DNA of 38,542 nt, from positions 1-38,542 of the IMG/VR virus record IMGVR_UViG_3300045256_000082. One strand, given 5' to 3'. Position 1 is the first letter of the stretch, and each line of letters opens with the position of its first letter. Shown piece after piece: positions 19-28,449 of the stretch. A model generated the notes under the pieces. That model saw only the letters and a list, made by a program, of their open reading frames with translations, did not search any database and was not told the DNA's origin. The translations under genes and the position numbers were made by a program. This DNA comes from a virus.

Positions 19-193
19 TGTAGGTTTTGTAGGTTACGCCGATTTAAAAACTCCCATTTTACGGGCTTTTCGCGCGTCCTACAAAACCTACAACGGCCTT
101 CGCAAGGCCGGATTGCAGAAACCAGAACAAACGCGAACGAAACAGACAACCTCTTATTCCTACATCACAATTGCCGCTGTAGGTTTTGTAGGA
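19..193. promoter_or_regulatory. Left-end cluster of four TGTAGG operator-like elements
   Basis: Four copies of the TGTAGG element lie in non-coding DNA: 19-34 (plus), 77-92 (minus), 150-164 (minus, TGTAGGAATAAGAGG form) and 178-193 (plus). Three carry two half-sites nine bases apart. The first is flanked by GCGTAAC (1-7) and GTTACGC (32-38). No TTGAC-type -35 stands at the usual distance, so these are more likely protein-binding sites than complete promoters. Leftward genes outside the window could be the targets. The remaining bases of 1-434 hold two hairpins and no gene that I can support. Confidence 0.55.
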
Positions 194-313
194 CGAGGCG
201 AACAAACAGTGGATTTGCGCGTTATCTTGTGCGTTTCAACTTGAGGCTCGGAACCAAATCACGTTAGATGTTCGGCGGGCGGGAATGCTTCCCCTCTAAT
301 GTCCCCCTTGCCC

Positions 314-348
314 CGAGAGCCCGGTTCATCTGCATGGCCGGGCTCTCG
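314..348. terminator. Bidirectional hairpin, possible terminator
   Basis: An 11-bp perfect stem (CGAGAGCCCGG with CCGGGCTCTCG) closes a 13-base loop. Neither side has a proper T-run, so intrinsic termination is uncertain. It lies beyond the end of the leftward gene block and may act as a backup stop or as a transcript-end stabiliser. Confidence 0.4.
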
Positions 349-374
349 TCATTTGTGAGGACGCAGAAAAGATA

Positions 375-403
375 GAGCCCGGGGGTTGGGGACCCCCGGG
401 CTC
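375..403 (-). terminator. Strong hairpin terminator ending the leftward operon
   Basis: A perfect 12-bp GC-rich stem (GAGCCCGGGGGT with ACCCCCGGGCTC) closes a 5-base loop. On the minus strand it is followed by TATCTTTTCT, a T-rich tail. It lies 32 bases past the stop of the last leftward gene, as expected for the intrinsic terminator of that operon. Confidence 0.75.
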
Positions 404-434
404 GTCACCTTCAGAGACAGGGTTGCCCCGCGCC

Positions 435-782
435 TTATTGCGCGCCCATCTCCGATGGTCCGAGAATGGCCGTCACCAAAACCTGATCGTCGGCCATGCC
501 GCGCGTGTTGGGGCACTCCTTACGGGCGTCTTCCGCCGTGAGCCCAATTGCGCCGCACTTGATGCAACGACCGACTAGGGGCTTGCCCTTTTGATTGGTC
601 CGCTCAATCGCGTGACACGTCTTCTGCATTTCCAGTTTCCTCTTGTGGCGGGATCGTTTCTGTATCGCGCAGAGGTGTTCACGACACGCCGCGCGCCGGA
701 GCTTGTTGAACGCTAGAATGTCCTCTCGATGCCGGCGGTAGTAGCGCCTCTGTCGGGCGCGCTTCGCGGCGCTTCCCCTCAC
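435..782 (-). CDS. Small basic zinc-ribbon protein, function unknown
   Basis: A 115-residue protein starting at GTG, whose GTGA overlaps the stop of the upstream glycosyltransferase, so translation is probably coupled. The first 55 residues are very rich in Arg and Lys (RRYYRRHRED), resembling the basic N-termini of small phage DNA-binding proteins. A CxxC with a later Cys (RCIKCG, then KECP) in the second half may bind zinc. No HNH catalytic set is visible, so I do not call it a nuclease. It is the last gene before the leftward terminator. A nucleic-acid-binding role is an inference. Confidence 0.65.
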   Translation of the reverse strand: MRGSAAKRARQRRYYRRHREDILAFNKLRRAACREHLCAIQKRSRHKRKLEMQKTCHAIERTNQKGKPLVGRCIKCGAIGLTAEDARKECPNTRGMADDQVLVTAILGPSEMGAQ

Positions 783-1687
783 GGCCCGCCCATCTCACTG
801 GCCGCGGCCAAGCGGAACGCTTCCGCAGCGGCGACGTTCGCCTCGCGCCCGTTCGCAACCCGGAACGCGACCTGTGCAGCCGACAGCCCTTTGCGGGCGA
901 GGTAGCCTTTTCCGTTTTCCATTTCGACGAAGCGCCGGCGGTTCTCGACGACGTACGCCGGATGATGAAAGAGATGGATGACGCCAGTGGCGAAGCGGCC
1001 CGTCTTCCGCCTCACGCCGTAGCGCAGCATGCGGAGACAAAGGTCATTATCCTCCCATCCCCACCCGATATATGAGCTATCAAAACCGTCTATGGCCGTA
1101 AGGTCGAGCTTCCACATGGCGAGGTTGCACGCCATGAACTTTTTCCAATCCTGTCGCGAGCCGCGGCGCAACGGGCCAAGTGGAAGTGTGATCAGCGGCG
1201 CAAGTCTGTTCACCTGACCCGTGAGGCGCGCCGCGATCCAGCGCAGCATGCCCCAATCCTCCGGCGGCACGCACTTGTCGCTCAGCACAAGGTCGGTCAA
1301 CTTCTCTCTGAGCATGACTCTGTTGCCCTGCACAAAATAGCCGTGCTCGGCGAGGCGGCGATGCGCCGCGACGAACCCTTCGCGCGGGATACAATCGCCG
1401 TCCAAAAAGATGAGATACTGTCCGCTCGAAGCGATCACAGCCTTGTTGCGGATCGCGGCGACGCGGAACCCGTTATGCTCTTGCCACACGTGATCGACGT
1501 TCAGACCCTTGCGCCTGAAATCGTCGACCACTGCGCGGGTGCGCGCGTCAGTTCCGTCTTCAGCGACAATGACTTCGAAGTTTCTGTCGGTTTGGTAGGT
1601 CAGACCATACAGCACAGCGCGAAGCGCCTCTGGCCAATTGTAGGTCGAAACAATTACCGAAATTCTCCCGTTGAACCTTGTGCCCAT
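779..1687 (-). CDS. Family 2 glycosyltransferase (GT-A fold)
   Basis: A protein of about 302 residues that should transfer a sugar from a nucleotide-sugar donor. The GT-A N-terminus ISVIVSTYNWPEAL, the acidic pair EDGTD and the metal-binding FLDGDCIPRE are clear. The C-terminal stretch GFDSSYIGWGWEDNDLCLR is typical of galactosyltransferase-type GT2 enzymes. I start at the ATG at 1687 because GAGGGG lies five bases upstream; a GTG at 1711 is an alternative. The acceptor is not visible in the sequence: host surface glycan, a virion protein or modified DNA are all possible. No DNA hydroxymethylation gene is seen nearby, which makes DNA the least supported. Confidence 0.9.
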   Translation of the reverse strand: MGTRFNGRISVIVSTYNWPEALRAVLYGLTYQTDRNFEVIVAEDGTDARTRAVVDDFRRKGLNVDHVWQEHNGFRVAAIRNKAVIASSGQYLIFLDGDCIPREGFVAAHRRLAEHGYFVQGNRVMLREKLTDLVLSDKCVPPEDWGMLRWIAARLTGQVNRLAPLITLPLGPLRRGSRQDWKKFMACNLAMWKLDLTAIDGFDSSYIGWGWEDNDLCLRMLRYGVRRKTGRFATGVIHLFHHPAYVVENRRRFVEMENGKGYLARKGLSAAQVAFRVANGREANVAAAEAFRLAAASEMGGP

Positions 1688-1726
1688 TTTTTGCCCCTCA
1701 AACTTGTCCACAGCAGTGACCTTTTC

Positions 1727-1744
1727 TTCCTACACCTGTAGGAA
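1727..1744. promoter_or_regulatory. Palindromic TGTAGGAA operator
   Basis: TTCCTACA-CC-TGTAGGAA is a perfect 8-bp inverted repeat with a two-base centre, in the gap between the divergent glycosyltransferase and the rightward 86-residue gene. It is the cleanest dyad form of the TGTAGG element found across the window and suggests a dimeric binding protein. A weak leftward TTGAAC lies just beside it. Confidence 0.6.
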
Positions 1745-1771
1745 CCCCCGTTCAACAATTCGTTAAAAGAT

Positions 1772-1801
1772 TTGACACCATTATCTCGTCGTGCGTACCT
1801 T
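1772..1801 (+). promoter_or_regulatory. Candidate rightward promoter for the 1842-2685 island
   Basis: TTGACA at 1772-1777 and TACCTT at 1796-1801 are separated by 18 bases, the same spacing as the other promoter candidates here. The AAGAC seen after other -10 boxes is absent. It stands 41 bases before the first rightward start codon. Confidence 0.5.
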
Positions 1802-1841
1802 GCAACCGCGCGTACCCAACAACCAGCGGGAGTAACAAGGT

Positions 1842-2102
1842 ATGGGAGCGAAGTATCAAGCGACCTACGCACTGGTGGGCTACGGCATGACAGTCGAGAT
1901 CAGGTTTCGCGACGGGCGCGTTGCGAAGTGCCCCGCGCGGTTCAAACAAGTTCTCGGCTGGCCCATGACGCGCGTCATCAACTACTGCAGGGGGCAAGGG
2001 CTCAGGCTTCGACATCTCGAAGGCGTGGCGCTTCATAAGCCGCAATTTCGCAAAGCGCGCGAGTACACACCGGGCCGCGCCATCCCGTCGTTCGCCGGCT
2101 AG
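1842..2102 (+). CDS. Hypothetical protein, 86 residues
   Basis: I do not recognise this family. The protein is small and basic, has one pair of Cys (KCPARF and NYCRG) and no membrane segment. GGGAG lies a short way upstream of its ATG and a promoter candidate 41 bases upstream. Together with the next two frames it forms a short rightward island inside an otherwise leftward block. The next gene begins 10 bases after its stop, behind an AGGAGGGG ribosome site, so the island looks like one small operon. Confidence 0.6.
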   Translation: MGAKYQATYALVGYGMTVEIRFRDGRVAKCPARFKQVLGWPMTRVINYCRGQGLRLRHLEGVALHKPQFRKAREYTPGRAIPSFAG

Positions 2103-2111
2103 GAGGGGAAC

Positions 2112-2246
2112 ATGAGCGCTCGAAGACTGACACCACACGCCCGGATCATGGAAGTAGACGGGCTGCGGCTGTCCGCGTACCCGATACAATGCGGCGGCTG
2201 CGGCGGGGATGCCGAAAGGCAAGTACGTGAACGGCGTTCCGTTTGA
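2112..2246 (+). CDS. Short ORF with the first half of a zinc ribbon; possibly 5' part of the next gene
   Basis: A 44-residue frame with a strong AGGAGGGG site. It contains CGGC, the first Cys pair of a zinc ribbon, but no partner Cys pair. The partner (CPGC) is in the next frame, which begins at 2209 inside this one, one base out of register. The two meet at a GGGG run (2205-2208). Read together with one G removed, they give a single protein with CGGC and CPGC roughly 35 residues apart around a GW, the usual layout of small phage zinc ribbons. Either the gene is frameshifted or it uses a frameshift. Confidence 0.5.
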   Translation: MSARRLTPHARIMEVDGLRLSAYPIQCGGCGGDAERQVRERRSV

Positions 2247-2685
2247 ATTCTACCGCACCTACTTCTGCCGCAAAGGTTGGGAGGTGCACGCCGCCGGCAC
2301 ATCACGCGACACGTGCCCCGGCTGTGTGAAGAAAGCCGACGAGCTGCGCCGGCAACGCGCTTTAAGACACCAAGCGCAGCAGCAGAGACCACACCCGAAT
2401 ATCATCGCCGCCGCGCAGCCCGACGCCCCACAGCCAGAGTTTTTCTCATATCGCGATGTCAAAGAGCTACAGGCGAAGTTCAGCAGACGCGACCCCGACA
2501 ACATACGCCGCGAGATCAGATTGGTTGAACAGAGATTAGCCCGCCTGCGTATCGAGATAATGCCGTTTGAAGACGTCCCCAAGCCAGCTCCCCCGCCGCC
2601 GATACGTTTAGAACCCCGGAAGCGCCCGCGTCCGCCGCTGCATTTCTGGCTAGAACGCCTTCGGGTCAAAGCAGTGAACGCGTGA
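2209..2685 (+). CDS. Zinc-ribbon-like protein, probably C-terminal part of a split gene
   Basis: This 158-residue frame starts at an ATG inside the previous ORF. The first 40 residues contain YFCRKGWEVHAAG and DTCPGC, which look like the second half of a zinc ribbon. A basic helix follows, then a helical stretch (residues 75-120) and a proline-rich basic tail (PKPAPPPPIRLEPRKRPRP). Its ATG has no clear separate ribosome site. The 3' end overlaps the end of the opposing zincin gene by 36 bases. The function is unknown; nucleic-acid binding is an inference. Confidence 0.6.
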   Translation: MPKGKYVNGVPFEFYRTYFCRKGWEVHAAGTSRDTCPGCVKKADELRRQRALRHQAQQQRPHPNIIAAAQPDAPQPEFFSYRDVKELQAKFSRRDPDNIRREIRLVEQRLARLRIEIMPFEDVPKPAPPPPIRLEPRKRPRPPLHFWLERLRVKAVNA

Positions 2686-3003
2686 GACCTGTTGGCCTAG
2701 CTTGACGAACGCGGCGGTGTGCTGTGTCTCGTGGTGGTCGATCCGAACTTCCTTCTCGTACAGGTGTACCATCTCATGCGCCATGACACGCATCAGCATG
2801 TCGGTCGACCCCACGGTGTATTCCGAGATTGCGATGATGTGCTGACCGTCGATGCAGTCATACCAACCGAACAGCGTCCGGCTCTTGATCACGCGCCACG
2901 CGATGTCCTCTGACTCCGGCAGGTTCCAGCGATGGAAGGGCGGCGTCGTGCGAAGATAATCGTACGCCGCCGCAAGCGTTTCGCACGTCAGGGGCAGGCT
3001 CAT
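2650..3003 (-). CDS. SprT-like zinc metalloprotease (zincin)
   Basis: A 117-residue protein with the zincin motif HEMVH at residues 76-80 and a third likely zinc ligand at His95 (ETQHTAAF), as in SprT/Spartan-like proteins. Those enzymes cleave proteins on DNA, but the substrate here is unknown. I chose the ATG at 3003 because its ATGA overlaps the stop of the DNA polymerase, so the two are translationally coupled. It is shorter than cellular SprT and has no C-terminal zinc ribbon. Its last 36 bases overlap a gene on the other strand. Confidence 0.8.
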   Translation of the reverse strand: MSLPLTCETLAAAYDYLRTTPPFHRWNLPESEDIAWRVIKSRTLFGWYDCIDGQHIIAISEYTVGSTDMLMRVMAHEMVHLYEKEVRIDHHETQHTAAFVKLGQQVSRVHCFDPKAF

Positions 3004-5063
3004 GCTTTCTTGTACCTTTCGCCGTCCCACGCACTGGCCGCGATCGGCAACCCTTCCGCCCACGCCGGCAGCTCGCACACGATCGCCTCGAATTCTTCGA
3101 GCGACCCGTGCGACACCGCGGGCTCCGCAACAGCTTCGTCGTGCACCGTGAGAATGATCGGGTAGCCGCGGCGCTCTAGGCGCTTCATCGCTTCGCGCAG
3201 AATGTCGCTTGCGATCCCCTGGTCGGCGTTCTCAGTCGTGAGACCGCCGTACGCGTAGCACGGCCCCCATTTGCGCGTGTAGCTGTCCTGTCCCTGATAC
3301 TCGACAACATCGCGCGGCTCGCTCGTGATCTCGATCTTGCCGGCGCGTTCCAACTCGACGGCACGCTCCCAAAGGATCGAGCGCGGGCGACCAAGATGGT
3401 CGCGTATCCATGCGAATTGAGCGATGCGCGGGTACGGGTAACAGATCGACCGGCCCGAAGGCAGCCGCATCCACAGGAAGCTGCCGGCGGTGCGCCACGC
3501 GAGCACACCGGACTTCACGATCTTGCCCGGATGCTGCACGGCGTACAGTTGCGCGTCCTCAATGTCGCGCCACATGTCCGTCACGCGGGGATGGGCTTGC
3601 CGCCACTTCCGCTTCCATTCGTCGGCGGTCTTTGCGTCGAGCTTGATCTTGTACGCGGCGGCCATTGACTGCAGAGCGGACACGCCGCCCTCATAGCCAA
3701 GCGCCAGCTCTTGCACCTTGCCGCCTTGCCGCTGGTCTTTGGTGACTTGCTCAACCGGAATTCCGAACGAGCGCGCCCACGCCAGGATGTATAGGTCGGG
3801 ACCGGTGCCGGCGTCATAGTCGCGGAACGCCTGCAGCTTCCAGTCCTCACCCGCCATCCACGCAAGGATTCGGCCTTCAATGTTCGCGAAGTCGGCCGCC
3901 ATGATGCGGCGACCCTTGGCCGCCGTGATCATGCCGCGCAGACAATCGCCGACGACTGACAGCGGCTCGCCATATTGGCGGACGACTTCGATGTCGCCGG
4001 TCGCAACGGCCTCGATCGCTTCGTCGATCTCGCCTTCCTTCAGCTGCGGGCGCTTGATGTTCTGAGGCTGGAAGCGACGGCCCGCCCAACGACCGGTAGA
4101 CGCGGCGTGGAATTGCAGCAGCCCACGAGCGCGGTTGTCGTGCGAGCGGCCAAGCAGCAGCGCCTCAATCTTCTTCACGCTTGCCTTGGCGGCTTCGCGC
4201 CGGAGCTCAAGCGCGCGGCGCACGTGATCGGGAAGATCCAAGCCAAGCAGCTCGTCGATCGCCTGCTTGTCTAATCCGTCCGTCTGCCAACCCCGCAAGC
4301 GCAACCATTCAGCCAGGCGCACGACATTGGAGCACTTCTCGACGTGCCCGCCCGTGACTTCTCGCATCTCTTCGTCGAGCAGATCGGCGGCTTGGTCGAC
4401 GATCTGCAACGCGGCGAGGCACAGCGCCGTGTCGACATAGACGCCGCGGTCGTTGATGATCTGGTCGAGCCACCACGTTTGTTGTTCGGACGGCGACAGC
4501 GGCAGCAGCCGCTCGTGCAGCTTGCGCTCAACCTCGACGTCGTTCTTGCAGTAGGCATAGAGGCGCTGTTTGCGGGCGTCGTCGTCGAACCAATAAATGC
4601 CGTCCGGGTTCTCACCTTTACGCGGCCGGCGCGGCTTCGCCATTTGCATCATGAGCGCGCGCCCGCCCATGTCCTTCCCGATCTCGACACCGGCGACCGC
4701 TGCCGCATTGCTCAATGCGGCAGGCAACGACATGGCCAGAGCGCACGCCATCGTGCAACGCCATTGCGTGAGCTTCGGGATTGGCCACCCGTAACGCGGG
4801 CCAAGGATGCCGCGCCACATGACCCGCTCGAAAGCGGCGTTGTGCGCGATGATCTGCCAGCCTTCACGAACCGCGGACTGAACGGCGAGAGGCGCTTCTG
4901 CACGACCCGCCGGAATCCATAGCCCGATTGGCTCGTCGTCGACGGCGTACGCCGCGCACCAAACATCGGTCGTCGGATCGGCGGCGTAGCGATACACGCC
5001 GGACTTGGGAAGATCGACGGTCGAGCGCGATTCAAGATCGATGTGTAACGTGTGTACCGACAT
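3000..5063 (-). CDS. Family A DNA polymerase with 3'-5' proofreading exonuclease
   Basis: The 687-residue replicative polymerase. Exonuclease motifs: D9/E11 (LHIDLES), N75-F78 (AHNAAFE) and Y171-D175 (YCKND). Polymerase motif A is D391 (AADFANIEGR), motif B is R445-K449 up to LGYEGG, and motif C is H641-D642-E643 (TVHDEAVAE). The 5'-3' exonuclease domain of bacterial Pol I is absent, as usual in phage. The start ATG sits directly behind a TGTAGGAA element that also supplies the stop codon of the upstream gene. It should work with the primase-helicase at 14357 and the ssDNA-binding protein at 8255. Confidence 0.97.
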   Translation of the reverse strand: MSVHTLHIDLESRSTVDLPKSGVYRYAADPTTDVWCAAYAVDDEPIGLWIPAGRAEAPLAVQSAVREGWQIIAHNAAFERVMWRGILGPRYGWPIPKLTQWRCTMACALAMSLPAALSNAAAVAGVEIGKDMGGRALMMQMAKPRRPRKGENPDGIYWFDDDARKQRLYAYCKNDVEVERKLHERLLPLSPSEQQTWWLDQIINDRGVYVDTALCLAALQIVDQAADLLDEEMREVTGGHVEKCSNVVRLAEWLRLRGWQTDGLDKQAIDELLGLDLPDHVRRALELRREAAKASVKKIEALLLGRSHDNRARGLLQFHAASTGRWAGRRFQPQNIKRPQLKEGEIDEAIEAVATGDIEVVRQYGEPLSVVGDCLRGMITAAKGRRIMAADFANIEGRILAWMAGEDWKLQAFRDYDAGTGPDLYILAWARSFGIPVEQVTKDQRQGGKVQELALGYEGGVSALQSMAAAYKIKLDAKTADEWKRKWRQAHPRVTDMWRDIEDAQLYAVQHPGKIVKSGVLAWRTAGSFLWMRLPSGRSICYPYPRIAQFAWIRDHLGRPRSILWERAVELERAGKIEITSEPRDVVEYQGQDSYTRKWGPCYAYGGLTTENADQGIASDILREAMKRLERRGYPIILTVHDEAVAEPAVSHGSLEEFEAIVCELPAWAEGLPIAASAWDGERYKKA

Positions 5064-5071
5064 TTCCTACA
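5064..5071 (-). promoter_or_regulatory. TGTAGGAA element overlapping the polymerase start
   Basis: On the minus strand TGTAGGAA is directly followed by the polymerase ATG. It contains the TAG stop of the upstream gene, and its AGGA can serve as ribosome site. A protein bound here, on DNA or mRNA, could control polymerase synthesis; that part is inference. Confidence 0.45.
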
Positions 5072-5450
5072 CAGCGGTCAAAATAAAAGACAAAGCCGCG
5101 TCGAAAGAGTCGAGAACAGCATGGCTGTGATACCTCAACCATGGGCTGACGGAAGCCCCTTTCTTCGCCACCACGACAACCAACTTTCCAGCGTTGAAAG
5201 CGAGAAGCACTTCCATACTGGTGCCAACGCTTGGCTTGTCATAATTGACGAGAATCACGTCACTGTTCGCGATATCAATTTTGTCGAATTCAACAATCTC
5301 ATCCACGCACTGATCCTCGCGCCCGCGATAATCGCGCCGCATCGGGTCCAGTGTTTTCCCTGACCACTTCGCCTTTACTAGCTCGCGCCAATCTTTGCAC
5401 TCGTCATCAGTGCACCCATTGATTGGCCCGCAAAGGTAGATGGTTTTCAT
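5067..5450 (-). CDS. Nucleoside 2-deoxyribosyltransferase-like protein
   Basis: A 127-residue protein. The N-terminal IYLCGPI, the DIANSDVILVNYDKPS stretch and GTSME, where Glu80 would be the catalytic nucleophile, match the nucleoside 2-deoxyribosyltransferase superfamily. These enzymes swap or remove the base of deoxynucleosides. The start at 5450 has a good AGGAGA ribosome site. It lies between the DpdA-like gene and the polymerase, and a second member of the same fold is at 6950-7321. The substrate is unknown; base exchange, nucleoside hydrolysis or salvage are possible. Confidence 0.8.
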   Translation of the reverse strand: MKTIYLCGPINGCTDDECKDWRELVKAKWSGKTLDPMRRDYRGREDQCVDEIVEFDKIDIANSDVILVNYDKPSVGTSMEVLLAFNAGKLVVVVAKKGASVSPWLRYHSHAVLDSFDAALSFILTAV

Positions 5451-5464
5451 CTTTCTCTCCTGTT

Positions 5465-6181
5465 TTAGGCAAGCATGCACATCATCGTGATGCGCGCTGT
5501 CCACTCCGCAGCTTCGCGCCAATCATTCTGGTTTCGACCGTTTCGCCGGGCGGCGAAGGACCAAGCCATGCTGTCGGCGCTATGAAGAAGATTGATTACG
5601 GTGGCGCTGGTTAGGGCTGTTATCTTGACGCCAAACCCATGCAGCAACAGGTCTGGCCGTTTGCTCTTGATCGCAACCAGAATGCTTTCGATAGTCCCTA
5701 CGTTCGCGTTCCGCTTACAAACAGAACCGACACCCACATACATCCCAGGCTTAAGCCGATCCTCGTATTGATCGATATGATCGAGATAGTCGACCACCTC
5801 GTAGCCCTGCAGAACCAGCATGATGTAGGTGCGCGGCACGAGCGGCAGCAAGGCGTCATACCGCTCGATCGTTCGGCGCTGATGTTCTCGAACGGACAAA
5901 CCCGTCTTCGCTACGATCCACGGCTCGCACATCCAATCCTGTGAAACAGCCGCGACTAAACCGGAGCCCGGGTATGACCACCGATTGATCTCAGCCGCGT
6001 ACTCACCCACGCCATGGCGATACTTCCCGTGCGTGGCGATTTCCGTGAACGCGCCAGAGTCCATGATCCATTCGCGTGCTTGGATGGGCTTCTTTCGGTC
6101 CCGCAGCCGGTTTACCGATATGAAAGCTCTGTCAAAGTGCCCTGCATCGGATGGCTGATGCAGCCCGGTGTAGAACAGCAT
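5465..6181 (-). CDS. dpdA: DpdA-like DNA-guanine transglycosylase (7-deazaguanine DNA modification)
   Basis: A 238-residue protein resembling phage DpdA, a relative of tRNA-guanine transglycosylase that replaces guanine in DNA with a 7-deazaguanine base. Features seen: MDSGAF at 40-45, QDW at 81-83, QGYEVVDYL at 125-133, VGVGSVCKR at 149-157, HGFGVK at 181-186 and SADSMAW at 201-207. In DpdA phages this modification blocks host restriction enzymes. No preQ0-synthesis genes (FolE, QueD, QueE, QueC) are in the window, so the precursor would come from the host or from genes outside. It follows the diphosphohydrolase gene by 8 bases. The ribosome site is weak. Confidence 0.85.
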   Translation of the reverse strand: MLFYTGLHQPSDAGHFDRAFISVNRLRDRKKPIQAREWIMDSGAFTEIATHGKYRHGVGEYAAEINRWSYPGSGLVAAVSQDWMCEPWIVAKTGLSVREHQRRTIERYDALLPLVPRTYIMLVLQGYEVVDYLDHIDQYEDRLKPGMYVGVGSVCKRNANVGTIESILVAIKSKRPDLLLHGFGVKITALTSATVINLLHSADSMAWSFAARRNGRNQNDWREAAEWTARITMMCMLA

Positions 6182-6189
6182 GCGGCCGA

Positions 6190-6780
6190 CTATCTGGCCC
6201 CTCGCGGCTTCGACAAGCTCAGATCGCGTTCAAGTTCTTCCTGCAGCAGCGCGAGCGCGCGCCATGCGAGCTGCGCCGAATGCCGGTTGCCGTCCTGGTC
6301 GAAGCCGCCGCGTTCGGTCAGGTGACGCGCGATGCAGTCGGCGTGATCCATCGACTTGCCGCGCGCCCAATGCAGCGGTTGGCCGGGGTTGTGCTTCTCA
6401 TTCCCGCGATGGCTGATGTTGGAAACTGAAGCGAGCGCGTCGGGGAAATAGTCAAGCAGGCCGGAACACATCGGCATGAGCTTGCGCAAGTCGCTGTCGG
6501 TGTCGAGCAAACGCTTTGGCGGGACTTCTTCGCCGCCGTAGCTATGCGCCAACTCGGGCGCCTTCCCGGCTTGGCGTTCGGCTTCGCGTTGCTCATCAAA
6601 ACGGTCGATTGTCTTCTGTGAAGGCATGTGATTGGTCCACCAAGTGAGTTCGGAGCGGTCGATTTCGACCAGCGTTCCGGGCGGCATGATCGAGCCGTCC
6701 GGGTACATTCCGGCCATCGCGCAGATCAGTTCGTATTGGCGTTCGCGGGTCACGCGGTGTTGCCCTTGTTGTGGTTCCAT
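6190..6780 (-). CDS. dATP/dGTP diphosphohydrolase-like protein (DUF5664 type)
   Basis: About 196 residues. The C-terminal half (KHNPGQPLHWARGKSMDHAD, then RHLTERGGFDQDGNRHSAQ and AWRALALLQEELE) is the helical, His/Asp/Glu-rich domain annotated as dATP/dGTP diphosphohydrolase N-terminal domain in phages. It would alter the purine dNTP pool during replication. The ATG at 6780 has GAGGA upstream; a GTG at 6753, overlapping the previous stop as GTGA, is an equally possible start. It lies directly before the DpdA-like gene, consistent with a nucleotide and DNA-modification cluster. The exact nucleotide handled cannot be told from sequence. Confidence 0.8.
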   Translation of the reverse strand: MEPQQGQHRVTRERQYELICAMAGMYPDGSIMPPGTLVEIDRSELTWWTNHMPSQKTIDRFDEQREAERQAGKAPELAHSYGGEEVPPKRLLDTDSDLRKLMPMCSGLLDYFPDALASVSNISHRGNEKHNPGQPLHWARGKSMDHADCIARHLTERGGFDQDGNRHSAQLAWRALALLQEELERDLSLSKPRGAR

Positions 6781-6947
6781 CGCAGCGCTTCCTCTGCAGC
6801 TCGCCGCAAGTCCGCCATGCGCCCGCGCAGCGCTTTCCGTTGGCGCCACCCTTCGAGCGTCGAGAGATCACACGCGGCGATCTGCGCGTGCGTATCGATG
6901 ATCTCTTTGAACAGCGGCGGGATACGCTGCGGGGCGTTGGTGAACAT
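6750..6947 (-). CDS. Small helical hypothetical protein
   Basis: A 65-residue protein, mostly helical and charged (WRQRKALRGRMADLRRAAEEAL), with no recognised family. Its ATG lies two bases after the stop of the deoxyribosyltransferase-fold gene, and its end overlaps the start of the diphosphohydrolase-like gene, so it sits in one tightly packed operon. A helper or oligomerisation role is possible but nothing in the sequence shows it. Confidence 0.6.
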   Translation of the reverse strand: MFTNAPQRIPPLFKEIIDTHAQIAACDLSTLEGWRQRKALRGRMADLRRAAEEALRWNHNKGNTA

Positions 6948-6949
6948 GA

Positions 6950-7321
6950 TCAGCCCGGATAATCGAGGCCGCGGATCGGGACGACAGTCAGGCACAGCGC
7001 GTCAGCGGTGGCCTTCTCGGCGATTGCGCCTTTGCTGTTCTCCCAACCGGGCAGCAGCGCGATCCCTTCGGCTTCCGCACAAATCCACGCCAAGTCCATG
7101 CCAAGCGCTTCGCGCAGACTGAACCCGTAATTGGAGGCGGCGACACTCTCGTCACCGGTCGGGTTGTTCTTCGAGATGTCGGTGCCGTGTCGCTCGTTGT
7201 CCTTCTCGGCGGGGTTGAACACCACGTGTCCATCTTCGCGCAGTATCTTCGCGGCGGCGTGGAACGCCGGGAAGTTGAACTCAGGAATCCCCCTCATGGG
7301 GCCGGCAAGGTAGACCTTCAT
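6950..7321 (-). CDS. DUF4406-type deoxyribosyltransferase-fold protein
   Basis: A 123-residue protein with the typical start MKVYLAGPMRG, then FNFPAFHAAA, GHVVFNPAEKD and, near the C-terminus, GAIAEKATA, where Glu102 is in the position of the deoxyribosyltransferase nucleophile. DUF4406 proteins are common in phages and have no settled function. It is a distant relative of the 5067-5450 protein; the pair flank the diphosphohydrolase and DpdA-like genes. The start ATG lies just after the stop of the GcrA-like gene, with GGAGA upstream. Confidence 0.85.
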   Translation of the reverse strand: MKVYLAGPMRGIPEFNFPAFHAAAKILREDGHVVFNPAEKDNERHGTDISKNNPTGDESVAASNYGFSLREALGMDLAWICAEAEGIALLPGWENSKGAIAEKATADALCLTVVPIRGLDYPG

Positions 7322-7322
7322 G

Positions 7323-7664
7323 TCATTCTCCGTTCTGGTCGAGTTCGCCGACCAATCTGATAAGGTGTTCGGTTGGCTCGCGGCGTGCCATCGACTCGAT
7401 GGAAAAGCGCACGTTGCTACGCACGTAGCCGCGTCCATCGGTGTGGCGTGCCCTGCCTATGAGGGTGATGCTGCGGTCGGTGCCGTAGATCATCGCCTCA
7501 AGAGCCCGTAGGCTCTTGCTGCTCTTGCCGCGGTGGTAGCGGGCTTTGCACTCAGGGCAGTACGGTTCGCCCTGTGCAGCCGGCGCGCCGCAGAAGAAGT
7601 GCGGCGGCCCCGCGGTCAGCGGGCCGCGGCACTCGCGCGGCCCCAACTCCAAGATTGTGAACAT
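7323..7664 (-). CDS. GcrA-like sigma-interacting domain protein lacking the DNA-binding half
   Basis: A 113-residue protein. Residues 10-45 (RECRG, HFFCGAP, GEPYCPECKARY; Cys12, 25, 36, 39) match the C-terminal domain of alphaproteobacterial GcrA, usually CRWPIGDP-FCG-PYC-AY. In GcrA this domain contacts domain 2 of sigma70. The N-terminal helix-turn-helix of cellular GcrA is missing; a different basic domain follows instead. It may therefore bind host RNA polymerase without GcrA's own DNA sites; this role is inference. The ATG overlaps the previous stop as TGATG. The four Cys might also form a plain zinc site. It is the best marker of host class here. Confidence 0.75.
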   Translation of the reverse strand: MFTILELGPRECRGPLTAGPPHFFCGAPAAQGEPYCPECKARYHRGKSSKSLRALEAMIYGTDRSITLIGRARHTDGRGYVRSNVRFSIESMARREPTEHLIRLVGELDQNGE

Positions 7665-8035
7665 CACGCCCCGACGGAGTTCTCAAGTCGGGTAACCGCG
7701 CTCTGCAAATCCTGCAGCGCATAGCCGAGATACTGCACCGTCGTCATGATGGCGCCGATCTGGCCGTTGACCGGAGGCGGCGGGACCGGGGCGTCTTTCT
7801 CTTGCAGCGTGTTCACCTCGCCGACGAGCAGATCGGTCACATTCGAAACACGTGCGCGATACTGGCGAACCATTTCGGTCGCGGCGCCAAGCGCGCGATC
7901 GATATCGGCCAAGTGGGAATGTGACTTCGCCGCCGGCGCGACGGTGCGGCTCGCCTTGTCGTAGGCGTACGTCTCAGCTTCCGCATCCACTGCCGCCTGC
8001 GCGCCGGCGGCGGCTCCGTTAACTCGTCCGTACAT
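7664..8035 (-). CDS. Hypothetical helical protein
   Basis: A 123-residue protein with no family that I recognise. Residues 35-80 and 90-120 look like long helices separated by a proline stretch (APVPPPPVNG), suggesting two coiled-coil segments. Both ends overlap the neighbouring genes as TGATG, so it is part of the continuous leftward operon. The role is unknown. Confidence 0.65.
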   Translation of the reverse strand: MYGRVNGAAAGAQAAVDAEAETYAYDKASRTVAPAAKSHSHLADIDRALGAATEMVRQYRARVSNVTDLLVGEVNTLQEKDAPVPPPPVNGQIGAIMTTVQYLGYALQDLQSAVTRLENSVGA

Positions 8036-8250
8036 CACGATCTCTCCGCTCGCGCCAACAGATCAATCACGACCGGTCGCCAGTTGGCGAAGCGCCGGAG
8101 CGAGACGCGTTTCCATCCTTTGCGGGGATGCAGATAGTGGACGTAGCCGACGGACAGCTTGACGCTGACCGCCGACGACGGAATGAAGTGGTTCCAGACA
8201 GAAGCGAACGCGTCGAACTGAGTGCTGAACCGGAACCACGGGGCGAGCAT
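8035..8250 (-). CDS. Hypothetical protein, 71 residues
   Basis: A small basic protein rich in Trp, Phe and Tyr (APWFRFSTQFDAFASVWNHF, VGYVHYLHPRKGW). It belongs to no family that I can name. The ATG at 8250 is preceded by GGAAG at good spacing, right after the ssDNA-binding gene. The stop overlaps the next start as TGATG. Given its position, a replication accessory role is possible but unproven. Confidence 0.6.
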   Translation of the reverse strand: MLAPWFRFSTQFDAFASVWNHFIPSSAVSVKLSVGYVHYLHPRKGWKRVSLRRFANWRPVVIDLLARAERS

Positions 8251-8254
8251 GGGC

Positions 8255-8875
8255 TTACTTCCACATGTCATCGGCTGAGATCGGCGCGCCGCCGCCGGAC
8301 GCAGGTGCGCCGACGTCGACAGCGTCAAAGCCGCTGTTGGTTTCCATGCGACCGCCGACGATCACTTCGTCGTGGTCGAGCAGCTGCACGCGCTGCAGTC
8401 CGAGGGAAATCCCTCGACCTTCGTTGTCGAAAGCGTACGGGCGCACGGTCACCACAGCCCATCGACCCGAATAGATGTCGGATGGATCACCGGTGAAGCG
8501 CTGCGCGTCCGGGCCAAAGATGAAGGGCGGATAATCGGCGCCGGTGCTGGTGCGCGCGAACCACGGGAACGCTTCGGCGTACTCCGTGAGCTTGGCGTCG
8601 TCGACGCTCTTGATCAGCGGATTGCGAAGGTTCTTCTTCTGCCAATCCTGCCCGAACCGGGCGACCGCGACGTCCACCATCATCTTCTTGAGCACGTCGA
8701 GATTCGCGGCGGCCGGGATCAGGACCGTCGTGCTGTGCTTCTTCGGCGCGTCGGGGCTGCGGTTCTTCTTGAACGCTTTCGCCGTCAGCAGCGAGTCCGG
8801 CCATACGAGTCGGCCCTTCGGCAGATGAATCTCGTCGGTCTTCTCGTTGTACCAAGCGGTCAACAGTTTGCTCAT
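8255..8875 (-). CDS. Enc34/DUF2815-type single-stranded DNA-binding protein
   Basis: A 206-residue protein matching the DUF2815 (Enc34) ssDNA-binding family: the N-terminal VWPDSLLTAKAF, the DNPLIKSVDD-type centre and the DIYSGRWAVVTVRPYAFDN strand region are typical. It should coat single strands during replication and recombination. The C-terminus is flexible and Gly/Ala-rich and ends with acidic and aromatic residues (DDMWK), like other SSB tails. Residues 182-188 (GFDAVDV) match a peptide also present in the Cas4-like nuclease and the primase-helicase. The start ATG follows a TAGGAAATAGAGGAT element. Confidence 0.88.
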   Translation of the reverse strand: MSKLLTAWYNEKTDEIHLPKGRLVWPDSLLTAKAFKKNRSPDAPKKHSTTVLIPAAANLDVLKKMMVDVAVARFGQDWQKKNLRNPLIKSVDDAKLTEYAEAFPWFARTSTGADYPPFIFGPDAQRFTGDPSDIYSGRWAVVTVRPYAFDNEGRGISLGLQRVQLLDHDEVIVGGRMETNSGFDAVDVGAPASGGGAPISADDMWK

Positions 8876-19588: not shown

Positions 19589-19711
19589 TAAGGCGGGATA
19601 TCAGCATATCACCCACCCCCATACCCCCCGACCCCCGGGGGGAGGGTCGCCGGGCCGGAGTCCAAACGTCGCAACCCGCCGGCGCAAATTTTTCGTTTTT
19701 CAAAATCCTCT

Positions 19712-19725
19712 TGTAGGAAATAGAG
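19712..19725 (+). promoter_or_regulatory. TGTAGG-type element before the 83-residue gene
   Basis: TGTAGGAAATAGAG at 19712-19725 followed by TACGGAGG, in the 176-base gap after the small terminase. No TTGAC box stands at the usual distance. The gap also holds a short GC-rich inverted repeat (CGACCC/GGGTCG near 19630-19650) without a T-run. Confidence 0.4.
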
Positions 19726-19764
19726 TACGGAGGTACATACTGTGGTTAATGCAAGGAGGGCGGA

Positions 19765-20016
19765 ATGAGAGCGCACGCGTGGGCGGTCGTTGACGGCGGC
19801 GAAATCAACCTCCAATCGATCAGCGGAACGCCCCGCGGCGCGATGATGACGTGGCTTGTGGCCACGAAAGGGCACCCGATCGACACCTACGCGACCGATC
19901 CGGTCGTCCTTGCCGAGTTCGGCCGCTGGCGATCGACCGCCAAACTGCAGCGCGTGACCATCGTGTTGCAATCGTCTCTCGCGACCGACGATCCCGCCGC
20001 TACATGGGCCGGTTGA
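19765..20016 (+). CDS. Hypothetical protein, 83 residues
   Basis: A protein of unknown family with a strong AGGAGGG ribosome site. It starts HAWAVVDGGEINLQSISGTP and ends with a beta strand (LQRVTIVLQSSLA), giving a compact beta-alpha-beta look. It stands alone between the small terminase and the tail-fibre promoter. Confidence 0.6.
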   Translation: MRAHAWAVVDGGEINLQSISGTPRGAMMTWLVATKGHPIDTYATDPVVLAEFGRWRSTAKLQRVTIVLQSSLATDDPAATWAG

Positions 20017-20047: not shown

Positions 20048-20089
20048 TTGACTAGTTTGTAGGTTTCGTAGGATACTAAGACCTACAAG
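20048..20089 (+). promoter_or_regulatory. Tail-fibre operon promoter with operator
   Basis: TTGACT (20048-20053), 18 bases and GATACT (20072-20077), followed by AAGAC. The spacer contains TGTAGGTTTCGTAGGA (20058-20073) and CCTACA follows at 20082-20087. It is one of the best examples of the shared promoter form. Confidence 0.7.
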
Positions 20090-20320: not shown

Positions 20321-21613
20321 ATGCCGCAGCCCACCCCGTACGAGCCGGATTTTACGTTCTGGTCGATCGAAGCCGGTCAAAGTTGGTTCCCGGGGCACCA
20401 GCTCGACCATGAATTCGCGAACCTCGACATCACGCTCACTGAAATTCTCGACAATCTGGAGCTGATTCAGCGCGACGACGGCGAAGTCGCGAACAAGACC
20501 ATTGGCCGCGACCAGCTCAAAGACGATTTGTGGCTGACGATCCAAGCGCTGAGCGCGCAGAACGCGCAAGAGGTGCTTGACGCGATCGACGCGCTCTCTT
20601 TGCTCAAAGCCGATATCAACTCGCCAACGTTTACGGGCGACCCGAAGGCGCCGACACCCTCGCCGGGCGACAACGACACGTCGATCGCGACGTCGGCGTT
20701 CGTCACGGCCGCGGTCGTCGCCGGCATCGCGACTCGGCAGCCGCTCGACGCGGATTTGACCGCTCTCGCGGCCTTGGCCACGACCGGATTCGCGGCGCGG
20801 ACGGCAGCAGACACGTGGGCGCTGCGCTCGCTCACCGCGCCGGCGGCCGGTTTCACGATTACGAACCCCGCCGGCGTCGCCGGCAACCCGACTTTCGTTC
20901 TCGCGAATGATCTCGCCGCGCTCGAAGCGCTCGCGTCCAACGGTTTCGCAGAGCGTACCGGCGTCGACACTTGGCAGATCACCGGATTCACTGGCACCGG
21001 TTCCGTGGTGCGCGCTTCTGCCCCCACCCTTACCGGCACGACCGTTATCTCAATCAATACGGCGGTTACGCGCCTCGATTATCTGCAGCTCACGCCGACA
21101 GATTGGGGCTCTAACAAACCTTATCTCGCGTTCACGAAAGGGATGGCGCCCGAGACGTGGGAAATTGTGCTGTGGGACGGCACCGACAGCAACGGCATCG
21201 TCAACGTCATTACGGGCACCGGCAACCTTCAGAACAACGGCAATAACGTCTGGCACCTTGGCAATCTCGCGCAGCCGGCACAGCTCAATGTCGAAGATCA
21301 AACGCTCGCCGGCGGCGCTCGTGTCACTGAAAAAGATCTTGGCACGATCAGCTCCGGCACCGTGACGCCTGATCCCGGCGACCGGCCGCTACAGAAATAC
21401 ACGAACGGCGGCGCGCACACGCTCGCGCCCGGCTCCAACGTCGGCGCGTATCTGCTGACGATCGTCAACAACGGATCGGCCGGCGCCATCACGACGAGTG
21501 GATGGACGAAGGTCGCCGGCGACTCGTTCACCACCACTAACGGGCACAAATTCCGCTGTCATGCCAGCATCACCGGTGACGGCTCCGTGCTCATCGTGCA
21601 GGCGATGCAGTAA
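20321..21613 (+). CDS. Tail fibre protein with shared N-terminal attachment module
   Basis: A 430-residue fibre-type protein. The first 70 residues (PYEPDFTFWSIEAG, NLELIQRDDGEVAN) match the N-terminus of the second fibre at 22375, so they probably anchor both to the tail. Next come Ala/Thr-rich low-complexity repeats (FVTAAVVAGIATRQPLDADL, LAALATTGFAARTAADTWA and a later FAERTGVDTWQITGFTG). The C-terminal part is beta-rich (NNGSAGAITTSGWTKVAGDS). Repeats of the type ATTGFAARTAADTWA are typical of phage fibre shafts. The stop overlaps the next start as TAATG. Confidence 0.85.
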   Translation: MPQPTPYEPDFTFWSIEAGQSWFPGHQLDHEFANLDITLTEILDNLELIQRDDGEVANKTIGRDQLKDDLWLTIQALSAQNAQEVLDAIDALSLLKADINSPTFTGDPKAPTPSPGDNDTSIATSAFVTAAVVAGIATRQPLDADLTALAALATTGFAARTAADTWALRSLTAPAAGFTITNPAGVAGNPTFVLANDLAALEALASNGFAERTGVDTWQITGFTGTGSVVRASAPTLTGTTVISINTAVTRLDYLQLTPTDWGSNKPYLAFTKGMAPETWEIVLWDGTDSNGIVNVITGTGNLQNNGNNVWHLGNLAQPAQLNVEDQTLAGGARVTEKDLGTISSGTVTPDPGDRPLQKYTNGGAHTLAPGSNVGAYLLTIVNNGSAGAITTSGWTKVAGDSFTTTNGHKFRCHASITGDGSVLIVQAMQ

Positions 21614-22334: not shown

Positions 22335-22370
22335 TTGACTGCGTTGTAGGTTTTGTAGGAAGCTAAGACA
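22335..22370 (+). promoter_or_regulatory. Promoter very close to the second fibre start
   Basis: TTGACT (22335-22340), 18 bases and GAAGCT (22359-22364), followed by AAGACATACA. The spacer holds TGTAGGTTTTGTAGGA (22345-22360). The ATG is at 22375, ten bases after the -10, so transcripts from this promoter would have almost no leader. Confidence 0.65.
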
Positions 22371-22374
22371 TACA

Positions 22375-23598
22375 ATGGCACAACCGATCCCGTACGACCG
22401 GGAATTCTCGTTCACTAACTTCCAGACGGCGAACCCACTGGCAACCCTGCCGGCGGATCAGCTCGACGCTGAACTGAATTCCGTTAAGCAAACTCTCGAC
22501 ACCGTGCTCGCCAACCTGGAACTCATCCAGCGCGACGACGGCGCGATTGCGAACCTGTCCGTTGGCGCCGAGCAGCTCGCCGCAGAGGTTCAGGTCGGCA
22601 TCAGCACGCCGCGCGTTTGGGCGACCGCGACGCAATACAAGATTTCGCCGATCGACACGGTTTTCCAAGGAAGCGCCTTCTACAGGGCCAAGGCAGATCA
22701 CACGAGCGGCGTCTTCGCGACCGATCTCGCGGCCGGCAAGTGGGAATTGATCGTTAACCTCGCCAGCGTGCCGCTGGTTAACGCGTCACAGATCGCGGTT
22801 TCGCCAACCGGCGGGATCAGCGCCGTGACGGTGCAAGCCGCGCTCGCCGAAGTCGACGCCGAGAAGGCGCCGCTATCCCACACGCACGTAGCGACGCAGA
22901 TCAGCGACAGTACGGCGATCGGCCGCGCGCTGTTGACCGCTGCGGACGCTGCAGCTGCCGGCGCGCTACTGCCGGGCTTGCCGCCGGGCATCGTCTTTCC
23001 TTACGCCGGCACATCGGCACCGGCCGGTTATCTGCTATGCGGCGGCCAAGCGGTCAGCCGCGCGACGTTCGCGGCGCTGTTCCTGGTCATCGGTACGACG
23101 TACGGCTCCGGCGACGGCGCGACCACGTTCAACGTGCCCGATCTGCGCGGGCGCGTGGTCGCTGGCAAAGACGACATGGTGCAAGGGTCGGCGAACCGGC
23201 TCACGAACCAAGCCGGCGGACTCGACGGTGATATCTTGGCCGCGGTTGGCGGCAGTGAAGGCGCGACGATTACGCAGGCGCAATTGCCGAGCTGCACTTT
23301 TGCGAATTCCGGTATCTCGGTTGGCGAGACGCCGCACCGGCATTTCGAATTCAGCACCGACCAAAACGTCAATACCACTCTCACCAACGCCAATCGGCCA
23401 CAGGTGGCCGGGTTCTTCGGTGGTGATGGCGCGACCAATAACGCTGCCGGCACCGCTGATTGCACGATCGGCCTTTCGTCGGCGGCGACCGCTGGCGTCA
23501 CAATCACCGCGCAAGGCAGCGCAGCATCGGGAGGCTCAGGCGCCGCGCACAACAACGTGCAGCCGACAATCATCCTGAACTACATCATCAAGACCTAA
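22375..23598 (+). CDS. Second tail fibre, with phage collar domain
   Basis: A 407-residue protein. Residues 1-70 (PYDREFSFTNFQ, NLELIQRDDGAIAN) repeat the attachment module of the first fibre. A small domain with aromatic residues (ATQYKISPIDTVFQGSAFYR) follows, then a collar domain (GIVFPYAGTSAPAGYLLCGG, FNVPDLRGRVVAGKDD) and a C-terminal part ending in VQPTIILNYIIKT, as in collar-type tail proteins. It probably contacts the host surface. There is no normal ribosome site; see the adjacent promoter. Confidence 0.88.
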   Translation: MAQPIPYDREFSFTNFQTANPLATLPADQLDAELNSVKQTLDTVLANLELIQRDDGAIANLSVGAEQLAAEVQVGISTPRVWATATQYKISPIDTVFQGSAFYRAKADHTSGVFATDLAAGKWELIVNLASVPLVNASQIAVSPTGGISAVTVQAALAEVDAEKAPLSHTHVATQISDSTAIGRALLTAADAAAAGALLPGLPPGIVFPYAGTSAPAGYLLCGGQAVSRATFAALFLVIGTTYGSGDGATTFNVPDLRGRVVAGKDDMVQGSANRLTNQAGGLDGDILAAVGGSEGATITQAQLPSCTFANSGISVGETPHRHFEFSTDQNVNTTLTNANRPQVAGFFGGDGATNNAAGTADCTIGLSSAATAGVTITAQGSAASGGSGAAHNNVQPTIILNYIIKT

Positions 23599-26247: not shown

Positions 26248-26248
26248 T

Positions 26249-28411
26249 ATGGCTGAAGAAGTAGAAGTCTCTGCGCCCGCGCCGGCCGCAGCCCCGACAG
26301 CGGCGGCAGTGCCGCAGAATCCGGTTTTTGACGACCAGAACAATCGGCTGCCGGAGCCGGACGAGGCGCAAAAGGCGTTTATCAAGGGTTGGATGGGCCG
26401 CATCGCGGCGGGTAAGAGGCATTGGGAGACGACCTTCGCGCGCATGCGCAAGTGCATGGAAATCGCAAAGGCCGGCGCCGACTCGTCGTGGGCGAAGCTG
26501 AACGAGGAAGGCGGCAACTACGTTGTGCCGATCATCAACCGGCACATCAACCAGTCTGTCGCGCAGACCTACGCCAAGAACCCGAAGGCGTATTGCGAGC
26601 GTAAGCGGCGCCGCATGTACGCGGTTTGGGACGGCAAGCTGGCGTCGCTGTACGAAGCGATCGAGACGGTGCAAACGGCTATACAGGTTGGCATGCCGCC
26701 GGACCCGAACGCGATGGCGATCATCAACGATGTCGCGCAAGTCCAGGCATACAATAACATGATGGATGGTATGGCGGAAACGCTCGAAATCCTTCATGAC
26801 TATTTCATCAACGAGCAGTCCGCCGGCTACAAGCAGCAGTTCAAGGCCGCCGTCCGGCGAGCGCGCGTGAACGGCATCGCGTACGTCGATCTACAGTTCC
26901 AACGCCTTTTGGAGCCGCGGCCGGACGTGACGGCAGAAATCCGGGACATGACTGCGCAGGTCGCGACTGTTGAGGCGCGGCTGCGGCAGATGGCGCGCGG
27001 CGAGATCGAGGAAGACGAGGCGAAGTTTGAGGAACTGCGCCTGGCTCTCGCCGAGCTGCAGAAGGATGAATACAAGATCGTCCGCGAAGGGCCGGTCTAT
27101 GCGTTCCCGAAGTCGACGCAGGTCATCCTCGACCCGGAAGTGAAACACATCAAGACGCTGGCGGGCGCCGACTGGTGGGCTCTCGAATTCGAAATGACGC
27201 CCGACAGGATCGAGGCGACTTATAAGATCAACATCAATGGCCGTTATCAGCAGTACAAGCCAGACGGCGGCCAAAAGACGTATTGGAGTGACTACAAAAA
27301 GAAGGAATGCAGCGACGCACCGGCTCGCGTTTATCGCGTGCAGCAGAAATCGACTGGGCTTGAATTCACGATCTGCGAAGGTTGCGATTACTACCTGAAA
27401 AAGCCGCAGTGCCCGGACGTGAGGATTGAGCGGTTCTTCACGCTGTTTCCGATCGTGTTCAACGAGGTGGAAGACGAGAACGGCGACAGCATTCCGCCGT
27501 CCGATGTCTGGAACGCGCGCCATAGCCAGCAAGAATATAACCGGTCGCGGCAGGGCTTGCGCGAGCATCGTCATATGAACCGGCCCGGGTACTACTCGCC
27601 GGCGCAATCATTGCAGGAAACCGATAAGCAGAAGCTTCAGAATCGCGCACTTGGCGACATCGTGGAAGTAGGTGCCCTGACGCAAGGCGAGAAGCTTGTC
27701 GATAAGCTCGCGCCGATCCCGACCGTGCCGCTCGACCCGAACCTGTACGAAGTGGAGTCGCTGTATAACGACATGCTGCGGACGGTCGGATCGCAACAGG
27801 CGAACATGGGCTCGACTGCCGGCGACACCGCGACCGAAAGCAGCATCGCGGAGAACAGCCGGCAGGTTGGCGAAGCGTCCAACGTCGACGATCTCGACGA
27901 TGTGCTCGCCGAGCTGGCGCACGCAACCGGGCAGCTCATGCTCACGGAGCTGAGCAAAGACACCGTGATCGAGATTGTCGGTCCCGGCGCCGTGTGGCCC
28001 GACACGCCGATGACGCGGGAGGAAGCCGCGAAGGACTTGGCGCTGTCGATCAAGGCCGGCTCGTCTGGCCGCCCGAACAAGCCCGCCGAGCTGGCGAACA
28101 TGGAACGCGCCATGCCGTTCGTGACGCAGCTCCCGAATGTGAACCCAACGCCGTTCGCTGAGAAGTTTTGCGGGCTGCTTGACGTCGACGTGAAAGGCGC
28201 GGTGGTCGAAGGCATGCCGTCCATTCAGGCGATCAATGCCATGATGGCCAAGGCGCAGCAGCTTTCGGCGCAGAACGCCAGCAAAAACCCCGCTGAGCAG
28301 GGCGGAAAGGGCGGCGACAACGCGCCGAAGCCTGCCGCGAACGAGCCCGGCGCACAGCCTGCGTACCCGGCGCCGCAGGGCGCCCCGGGCGCTGGCATGG
28401 GTCTTGCTTGA
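26249..28411 (+). CDS. Portal protein
   Basis: A 720-residue protein placed between large terminase and scaffold, where the portal is expected. The length is that of P22-type and related podovirus portals. The N-terminal region contains an Ala/Pro-rich tail and WAKLNEEGGNYVVPIINRHI. A long central helix (MTAQVATVEARLRQMARGEI) and the HSQQEYNRSRQGLREHRHMN stretch suit a portal stem and wing. The C-terminal 50 residues are Pro/Ala/Gly-rich. The stop codon lies within the -35 box of the next promoter. Confidence 0.85.
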   Translation: MAEEVEVSAPAPAAAPTAAAVPQNPVFDDQNNRLPEPDEAQKAFIKGWMGRIAAGKRHWETTFARMRKCMEIAKAGADSSWAKLNEEGGNYVVPIINRHINQSVAQTYAKNPKAYCERKRRRMYAVWDGKLASLYEAIETVQTAIQVGMPPDPNAMAIINDVAQVQAYNNMMDGMAETLEILHDYFINEQSAGYKQQFKAAVRRARVNGIAYVDLQFQRLLEPRPDVTAEIRDMTAQVATVEARLRQMARGEIEEDEAKFEELRLALAELQKDEYKIVREGPVYAFPKSTQVILDPEVKHIKTLAGADWWALEFEMTPDRIEATYKININGRYQQYKPDGGQKTYWSDYKKKECSDAPARVYRVQQKSTGLEFTICEGCDYYLKKPQCPDVRIERFFTLFPIVFNEVEDENGDSIPPSDVWNARHSQQEYNRSRQGLREHRHMNRPGYYSPAQSLQETDKQKLQNRALGDIVEVGALTQGEKLVDKLAPIPTVPLDPNLYEVESLYNDMLRTVGSQQANMGSTAGDTATESSIAENSRQVGEASNVDDLDDVLAELAHATGQLMLTELSKDTVIEIVGPGAVWPDTPMTREEAAKDLALSIKAGSSGRPNKPAELANMERAMPFVTQLPNVNPTPFAEKFCGLLDVDVKGAVVEGMPSIQAINAMMAKAQQLSAQNASKNPAEQGGKGGDNAPKPAANEPGAQPAYPAPQGAPGAGMGLA

Positions 28412-28449
28412 CAGGAATGTAGGAAATAGAGGATACTAAGACCTACACA
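28408..28449 (+). promoter_or_regulatory. Head operon promoter with operator
   Basis: TTGACA (28408-28413), 18 bases and GATACT (28432-28437), followed by AAGAC. The spacer has TGTAGGAAATAGAGGA (28418-28433) and CCTACA follows at 28442-28447. The TGA of the -35 is also the portal stop codon. It should drive scaffold and coat protein. Confidence 0.75.

Follow-up and report, generated by a model that had tools for sequence, protein, structure and literature searches.

The TGTAGG elements dispersed through this phage genome are, in the reading that we consider likely, operators of the phage's own immunity repressor, a CI-like XRE protein, in a temperate alphaproteobacterial phage. The window, by which we mean the whole stretch of 38,542 nucleotides analysed here (virus record IMGVR_UViG_3300045256_000082), is an incomplete phage genome that encodes a family A DNA polymerase, an exonuclease, an ssDNA-binding protein, a primase/helicase, the large terminase, the major head protein and tail genes, and its last open frame runs into the right end. 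No near match to positions 1-20000 was found in the phage DNA collection. The enrichment of the element, its geometry, its positional conservation and its phage specificity are properties of the sequence; what we infer is that an XRE protein binds the sites, that repression follows from this binding, that elongation is blocked at single sites, and that the window phage possesses an XRE gene.

TGTAGG occurs 30 times in the window, counting both strands, compared with a mean of 5.68 and a maximum of 13 in 100 dinucleotide shuffles, and it is the most over-represented hexamer in non-coding DNA. Gene models were made with a gene-finding script of our own, under which 12% of the window is non-coding; the coding mask includes four genes added by hand, two of which, 18700-18905 and 19104-19588, are not open in the frame given. 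With this mask 24 of the 30 copies are non-coding, a density ratio of 28 (binomial p = 4e-17). This bears out an earlier statement, made from the letters alone in a preliminary description of this DNA, that the element lies almost always between genes, and it differs from the equal coding and non-coding density which that description had named as refuting its idea of a regulon. A scan with the 16-mer TGTAGGWWWTRKAGGA, allowing up to three mismatches, gave 16 matches where 0.98 were expected. All 14 places reported previously were recovered in this way, some of them displaced by 1-8 bp, and two weak additional matches lie at 1585 and 14309; other sites beyond the original list are a divergent pair at 1729-1742 and a partner site at 19034. 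The reported spacing of nine bases between half-sites is present as TGTAGG-N3-TGTAGG, a direct 9-bp period that occurs five times in the window, and the orientation of the element agrees with the direction of transcription at 10 of 13 window sites. A short asymmetric site that recurs many times in the window, mainly between genes, is distributed as expected of dispersed repressor sites. We think it unlikely that the element is a mobile repeat, since its copies have different flanks and are placed according to the starts of operons. A purely palindromic site was also set aside, as the direct repeats of the window do not look palindromic; the motif of one relative, G029, looks palindromic. The sites are distributed as follows.

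19-34 (+), 77-92 (-), 149-164 (-) and 178-193 (+): cluster of four sites at the end of the early operon, beside the missing part of the genome.
1720-1742: divergent site pair at the start of the glycosyltransferase-like gene 779-1711 (-).
5056-5071 (-): site overlapping the first codon of the DNA polymerase gene 3000-5063, with TTGACC 10 bp upstream.
8877-8892 (-): site running into the Shine-Dalgarno sequence of the ssDNA-binding protein gene 8255-8875, found also at the orthologues in G014 and G019.
9297-9312 (-): site running into the Shine-Dalgarno sequence of the small gene 9053-9289.
13219-13258 (-): promoter copy with TTGACA, TGTAGGTTCTGTAGGA, CTTAGA and an inverted CCTACA, facing the early operon 435-13198.
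14228-14332 (+): sites in the space separating two divergent genes, resolvase-like 13602-14135 (-) and primase 14357-16285 (+).
19034-19073: inward-facing pair with a spacer of 28, between the minus-strand operon of small genes and the terminase-small-like gene (18854-19588 frame).
19712-19727 (+): single site upstream of the gene 19765-20016.
20048-20087 (+): promoter copy with an inward-facing pair, upstream of the tail fibre-like gene 20321-21613.
22335-22374 (+): promoter copy with the mirror CATACA, abutting the ATG (22375) of the tail gene 22375-23598.
28408-28447 (+): promoter copy with an inward-facing pair, upstream of 28512-29555, the gene preceding the major head protein.

Four mirrored promoter copies had been noted before, and all are present, at 13258-13219 (-), 20048-20087, 22335-22374 and 28408-28447. 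Each reads TTGAC[AT]-N4-TGTAGG and later N18-C[CA]TACA, with a second half-site 9 bp on and a CT[AT]AGA stretch another 9 bp on, such that two sites face inward at a distance of 18 bp. At 18 bp past the -35 hexamer stands GATACT in the copies at 20048 and 28408, and GAAGCT or GACGCT in the other two. A fifth TTGAC-N5-TGT lies at 5081 (-); the ATG of the polymerase gene begins 8 bp after the first base of its TGTAGG, and this copy is therefore not an ordinary promoter of that ORF. Single sites coincide with ribosome-binding sites or start codons at 5071, 8892, 9312 and 1734 (-), and at 1734, 8892 and 9312 (-) the Shine-Dalgarno sequence of the next gene is continuous with the site.

Relatives of the major head protein occur at 7 loci in genomes of alphaproteobacteria, among them Mycoplana, Nitratireductor and Bosea, and also in numerous viral contigs, of which the best 80 were taken; the relatives are mostly metagenomic records, some of them incomplete. 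In G001 (49,248 bases), the closest whole relative examined, 19 of the window proteins have homologues, which keep their order but run in the opposite sense. Between the end of its polymerase gene and its last structural homologue are about 12 kb that the window lacks, and this stretch holds an integrase gene (30596-31672, Pfam Phage_integrase) and an XRE repressor-like gene (31805-32344), with a cluster of sites at 29523-29599, comparable to the one at the left end of the window, ahead of the integrase/XRE operon. The two genes are likewise adjacent in G002 and G003, and in Rhizobium phage RHph_N65, an isolate, a repressor gene annotated as cro-like (EVC08_015) stands next to an integrase gene. 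Neither an XRE gene nor an integrase gene was found in the 38.5-kb window; since this genome is incomplete, an XRE repressor gene may lie in the missing part.

A profile built from three seed XRE proteins matched in 22 of 32 records, including the three seed records. The structure predicted for the G001 protein from a 40-row alignment (mean pLDDT 80.8, pTM 0.55) has a confident helix-turn-helix part, whose helices fall within residues 53-125, followed at the C-terminus by a strand-strand-helix (141-174), and its N-terminus is poorly predicted. Its fold and profile matches are XRE regulators, its Pfam matches are HTH_31 and HTH_3, partly under the curated cut-off, and its PHROGs matches are phage transcriptional repressors and regulators, so that fold, profile, Pfam and PHROGs agree on an XRE-type helix-turn-helix protein. 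No mycobacteriophage repressor is among its best 50 PDB fold matches.

To find motifs, an expectation-maximisation program of our own was applied to the non-coding DNA of 28 records; when the whole genome had served as background, AT-rich artefacts came out, and those runs were replaced. The top motifs, given here with TGT first, include TGTAGGAAACTGAGA in G001, TGTCTGATTTGTCGG in G003, GTAGAGAACTGAGAG in G014, TTGTCGGGTTTGTCG in G019, TGTCTGGTTTAGAGA in G020, TGTTGAAACTTGAGA in G022, ATGTTGAATTTAACG in G029 and TGTCCAAAATGTAGA in G033, and the second motif of RHph_N65 is a dispersed TTGTAGGTC/TTGTATGTC; in other records local arrays and AT-rich or weak motifs came out on top. We continued with 12 records that show a clear TGT-type motif, one of them the window; this choice was made after seeing the result, and two of the 12, G024 and G030, are weak. 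Among the 20 XRE-carrying relatives in the search, 9 had weak, AT-rich or local-array top motifs and were left out afterwards. The method behind the motif counts had been trained on the very non-coding DNA in which sites were then counted; the upstream-fit, TTGAC-offset, Bosea and orthologous-start tests described below do not rest on motif count alone. Exact scans of viral contigs with two 16-mers from the window found 49 stretches for TGTAGGTTTTGTAGGA and 21 for TGTAGGAAATAGAGGA. A check of TGTAGG density in the 49 gave a single outlier, an AT-rich stretch, while the 21 contained no homologue of the window proteins or of the XRE family, and the promoter composite had no match in any other contig scanned.

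Across the 12 phages, TTGAC stands exactly 10 bp before TGT at 16 of 319 sites, compared with a mean of 0.85 per offset over 91 offsets. The peak draws on seven of the 12 phages despite their differing motifs, and 11 of the sites remain when the window is left aside. This fixed offset indicates that some sites are operators placed inside predicted promoters. Positions are also conserved: at orthologous gene starts in 10 relatives, a site was present in both phages in 28 cases, in the window only in 20, in the relative only in 18 and in neither in 109 (odds ratio 8.5, Fisher p = 1.5e-8, for gene pairs that are not independent). The orthologue of gene 28512, before the head protein, has a site in 9 of 10 relatives, and that of tail gene 22375 in 8 of 10; sites also occur in relatives at the same resolvase-like/primase gap or genes. 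Between same-strand genes of the 12 phages, orientation follows transcription in 132 of 204 cases (p = 1.6e-5), a biased and not a strict arrangement.

Over 11 relatives taken together, the region upstream of the XRE gene fits the phage's own motif better than expected from random assignment (p = 0.00065, with sites near the XRE gene held out of the motif). The own motif ranked first in 5 of the 11; G001, G003 and G024 failed, with the motifs of G001 and G003 at ranks 9 and 10 of 11. In the 5.9-Mb genome of Bosea lathyri, 5 of 7 matches to the prophage-derived pattern lie inside a prophage stretch of about 57 kb, whereas a reversed control pattern has 6 matches genome-wide and none in that stretch. 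Other tests gave weak or negative results. A Mantel test of helix-turn-helix identity against motif similarity yielded 0.25 (p = 0.063), and a hexamer swap test scored presence at 11 of 35 loci against 8.8 after swapping, which is not significant. Generic half-site enrichment in 21 records with the XRE family (RHph_N65 included) against 6 without gave p = 0.12, and dispersal of the best motif in 20 against 6 gave p = 0.036; G021, in which the XRE family was not found, has a TTGTAGGAAA-like motif among its first three. The proposed link between the sites and the XRE protein thus draws on apparent autoregulation, prophage confinement, promoter geometry and analogy, and not on proven covariation.

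We propose the following scheme. The repressor gene would lie beside an integrase gene, a few kb past the left end of the 38.5-kb fragment, and its product would recognise an asymmetric site of about 15 bp in which a TGT-type half-site is followed, at a distance of 9 bp, by a second half. At the main promoters, inward-facing pairs between the -35 box and the start point would block initiation, and single sites at the heads of other operons, on the ribosome-binding site or immediately ahead of it, may block elongation in the manner of stoperators. In a lysogen, early replication genes and late structural genes would be silenced together, with immunity to superinfection, and each related phage would have its own diverged version of the site. 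The preliminary description had called the element a phage-wide regulon, under a phage-encoded DNA-binding protein that switches early and late genes. Its regulon is supported by phage-specific promoter sites that return at the starts of conserved operons and that are restricted to the prophage in one lysogenic relative, and a phage-encoded protein acting on early and late operons alike is supported; the early-to-late switch is not, and we favour a regulon concerned mainly with lysogeny and immunity.

A different phage protein might bind the sites and switch early and late genes during lytic growth, which we consider unlikely. The regulator suggested previously was a winged-helix-like protein encoded directly after the primase:

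16409-16876 (+): gene for the winged-helix-like protein, following the primase gene.

The family of this protein is present in those phages whose motifs are clearest (G000, G001, G014, G019, G020 and G022, in the first round), which would suit such a role. After four profile rounds, 15 of 30 records had a member of the family, and wherever a primase was located the member came immediately behind it. We do not favour it as the regulator because it keeps this place also in 4 phages where the XRE family was not found, in some of them beside a local repeat array resembling a replication origin; moreover, no TGTAGG site lies at the 16409 gene itself. Its N-terminus has only a sub-threshold match, to NUMOD3. 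Position after the primase, together with local repeat arrays there, suggests a role in replication instead: an array lies between the primase gene and the 16409-family gene in G018, G021 and G025, and one follows the primase in G031 and RHph_N65. Local arrays directly behind the primase (G018, 37.84-38.03 kb; G021, 3.50-3.72 kb; G025, 44.30-44.50 kb; L299, 34.94-35.12 kb) and a palindrome in the same post-primase place in the window (GGAGAGACC-TATA-GGTCTCC near 16309-16330, within 16285-16409) are candidate replication origins, to which proteins of the 16409 family may bind. The better candidate for the regulator appears to be a CI-like XRE repressor, whose gene we expect beside that of the integrase in the part of the genome absent from this fragment. 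A Cro-like protein or an activator could also be the binder, and here it counts that Cro and CI normally share operators; in G003 and G005 a small conserved ORF that lies near the integrase-repressor region or diverges from it could encode a Cro-like protein.

Two further readings were weighed. That the phage exploits sites of a host regulator is improbable: a sigma-70-type -35 box does form part of the promoter arrangement, but in Bosea, the one host concerned, the prophage pattern is confined to the prophage, and phages of related hosts carry differing versions of the site. Less probable still is that some of the pattern serves translation, as an extended Shine-Dalgarno sequence in repeated copies, and does not bind a protein. 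Several single sites do continue into AGAGGA or AAGG right before a start codon, yet the same sequence also stands far from start codons and within promoter spacers, occurs on either strand and forms inward-facing pairs.

Operators of a phage's own repressor on this scale would be a departure from those of CI-type XRE repressors. Repressors of this type such as P22 C2 and 434 CI, which the helix-turn-helix part of the candidate matches by profile, act at few operators in one switch region, whereas here about two dozen sites extend through the early as well as the late operons. Repressor sites spread over a whole phage genome have been described for P1, for cluster A mycobacteriophages and for SPbeta. 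Cluster A phages of Mycobacterium (L5, TipsytheTRex) are reported to have more than 20 asymmetric 13-bp operator and stoperator sites genome-wide, some in promoters and most in short intergenic gaps, mostly oriented with transcription, with a similar yet distinct motif in every phage and a monomeric repressor composed of an N-terminal HTH and a Stoperator domain (PMC9283540, PMC6550527). The lysogen scheme proposed here, in which one repressor would act on promoter and operon-head sites, is the one shown for these phages (PMC9283540, PMC6550527). The window group differs in an orientation bias of only 65%, in its 9-bp repeats and in its inward-facing promoter pairs, and the candidate, with its short predicted strand-strand-helix C-terminus, is set apart from the cluster A repressor by the domains described for the latter. 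A parallel to the proposed scheme is found in the Bacillus phage SPbeta, with its SPBRE, a 15-bp element in the promoter regions of many prophage genes that was predicted from sequence long before the master repressor MrpR was found (PMC10516654). MrpR has a tyrosine-recombinase fold (PMC10516654), unlike the XRE protein proposed here.

Our literature search, which had most subscription journals outside its reach, found no stoperator-type system in alphaproteobacterial phages. A more far-reaching idea, which we advance tentatively and think rather less likely than not to hold, is that temperate alphaproteobacterial phages independently evolved a stoperator system with a compact XRE repressor and many immunity types. 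In such a system an asymmetric site with a 9-bp period would be read, inward pairs would block initiation, single sites at ribosome-binding sites would block elongation or ribosome loading, and the C-terminal strand-strand-helix would perhaps be a second DNA-reading or bridging part. If confirmed, this large environmental phage group would be an independent case of co-divergence of a repressor and its dispersed sites into immunity groups, and immunity groups and operon starts would be readable from sequence alone. The isolate RHph_N65 provides material for testing the proposal.

Several other features of these phages deserve mention. L300 (OP028995.1), recorded as a Microcystis phage, has the head protein and the repressor of this otherwise alphaproteobacterial group, and also CobS/CobT genes; its host assignment may deserve a check. 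The early operon of the window includes a tRNA-Ile(GAT) gene at 8953-9024 and a queuine tRNA-ribosyltransferase-like gene at 5465-6181 (-), and a small protein encoded at 7323-7664 (-) has a sub-threshold Pfam match (E = 3e-4) to GcrA, a family of cell-cycle regulators, in the C-terminal part of that family. Between the small minus-strand genes at 17105-18960, a cassette is repeated about six times that is composed of a CTGCAG...CTGCAG palindrome, a TAGCCGCG stretch and CGGGGATAACGGAGGA ahead of the next start codon, and it looks like a repeated unit of terminator and ribosome-binding site.
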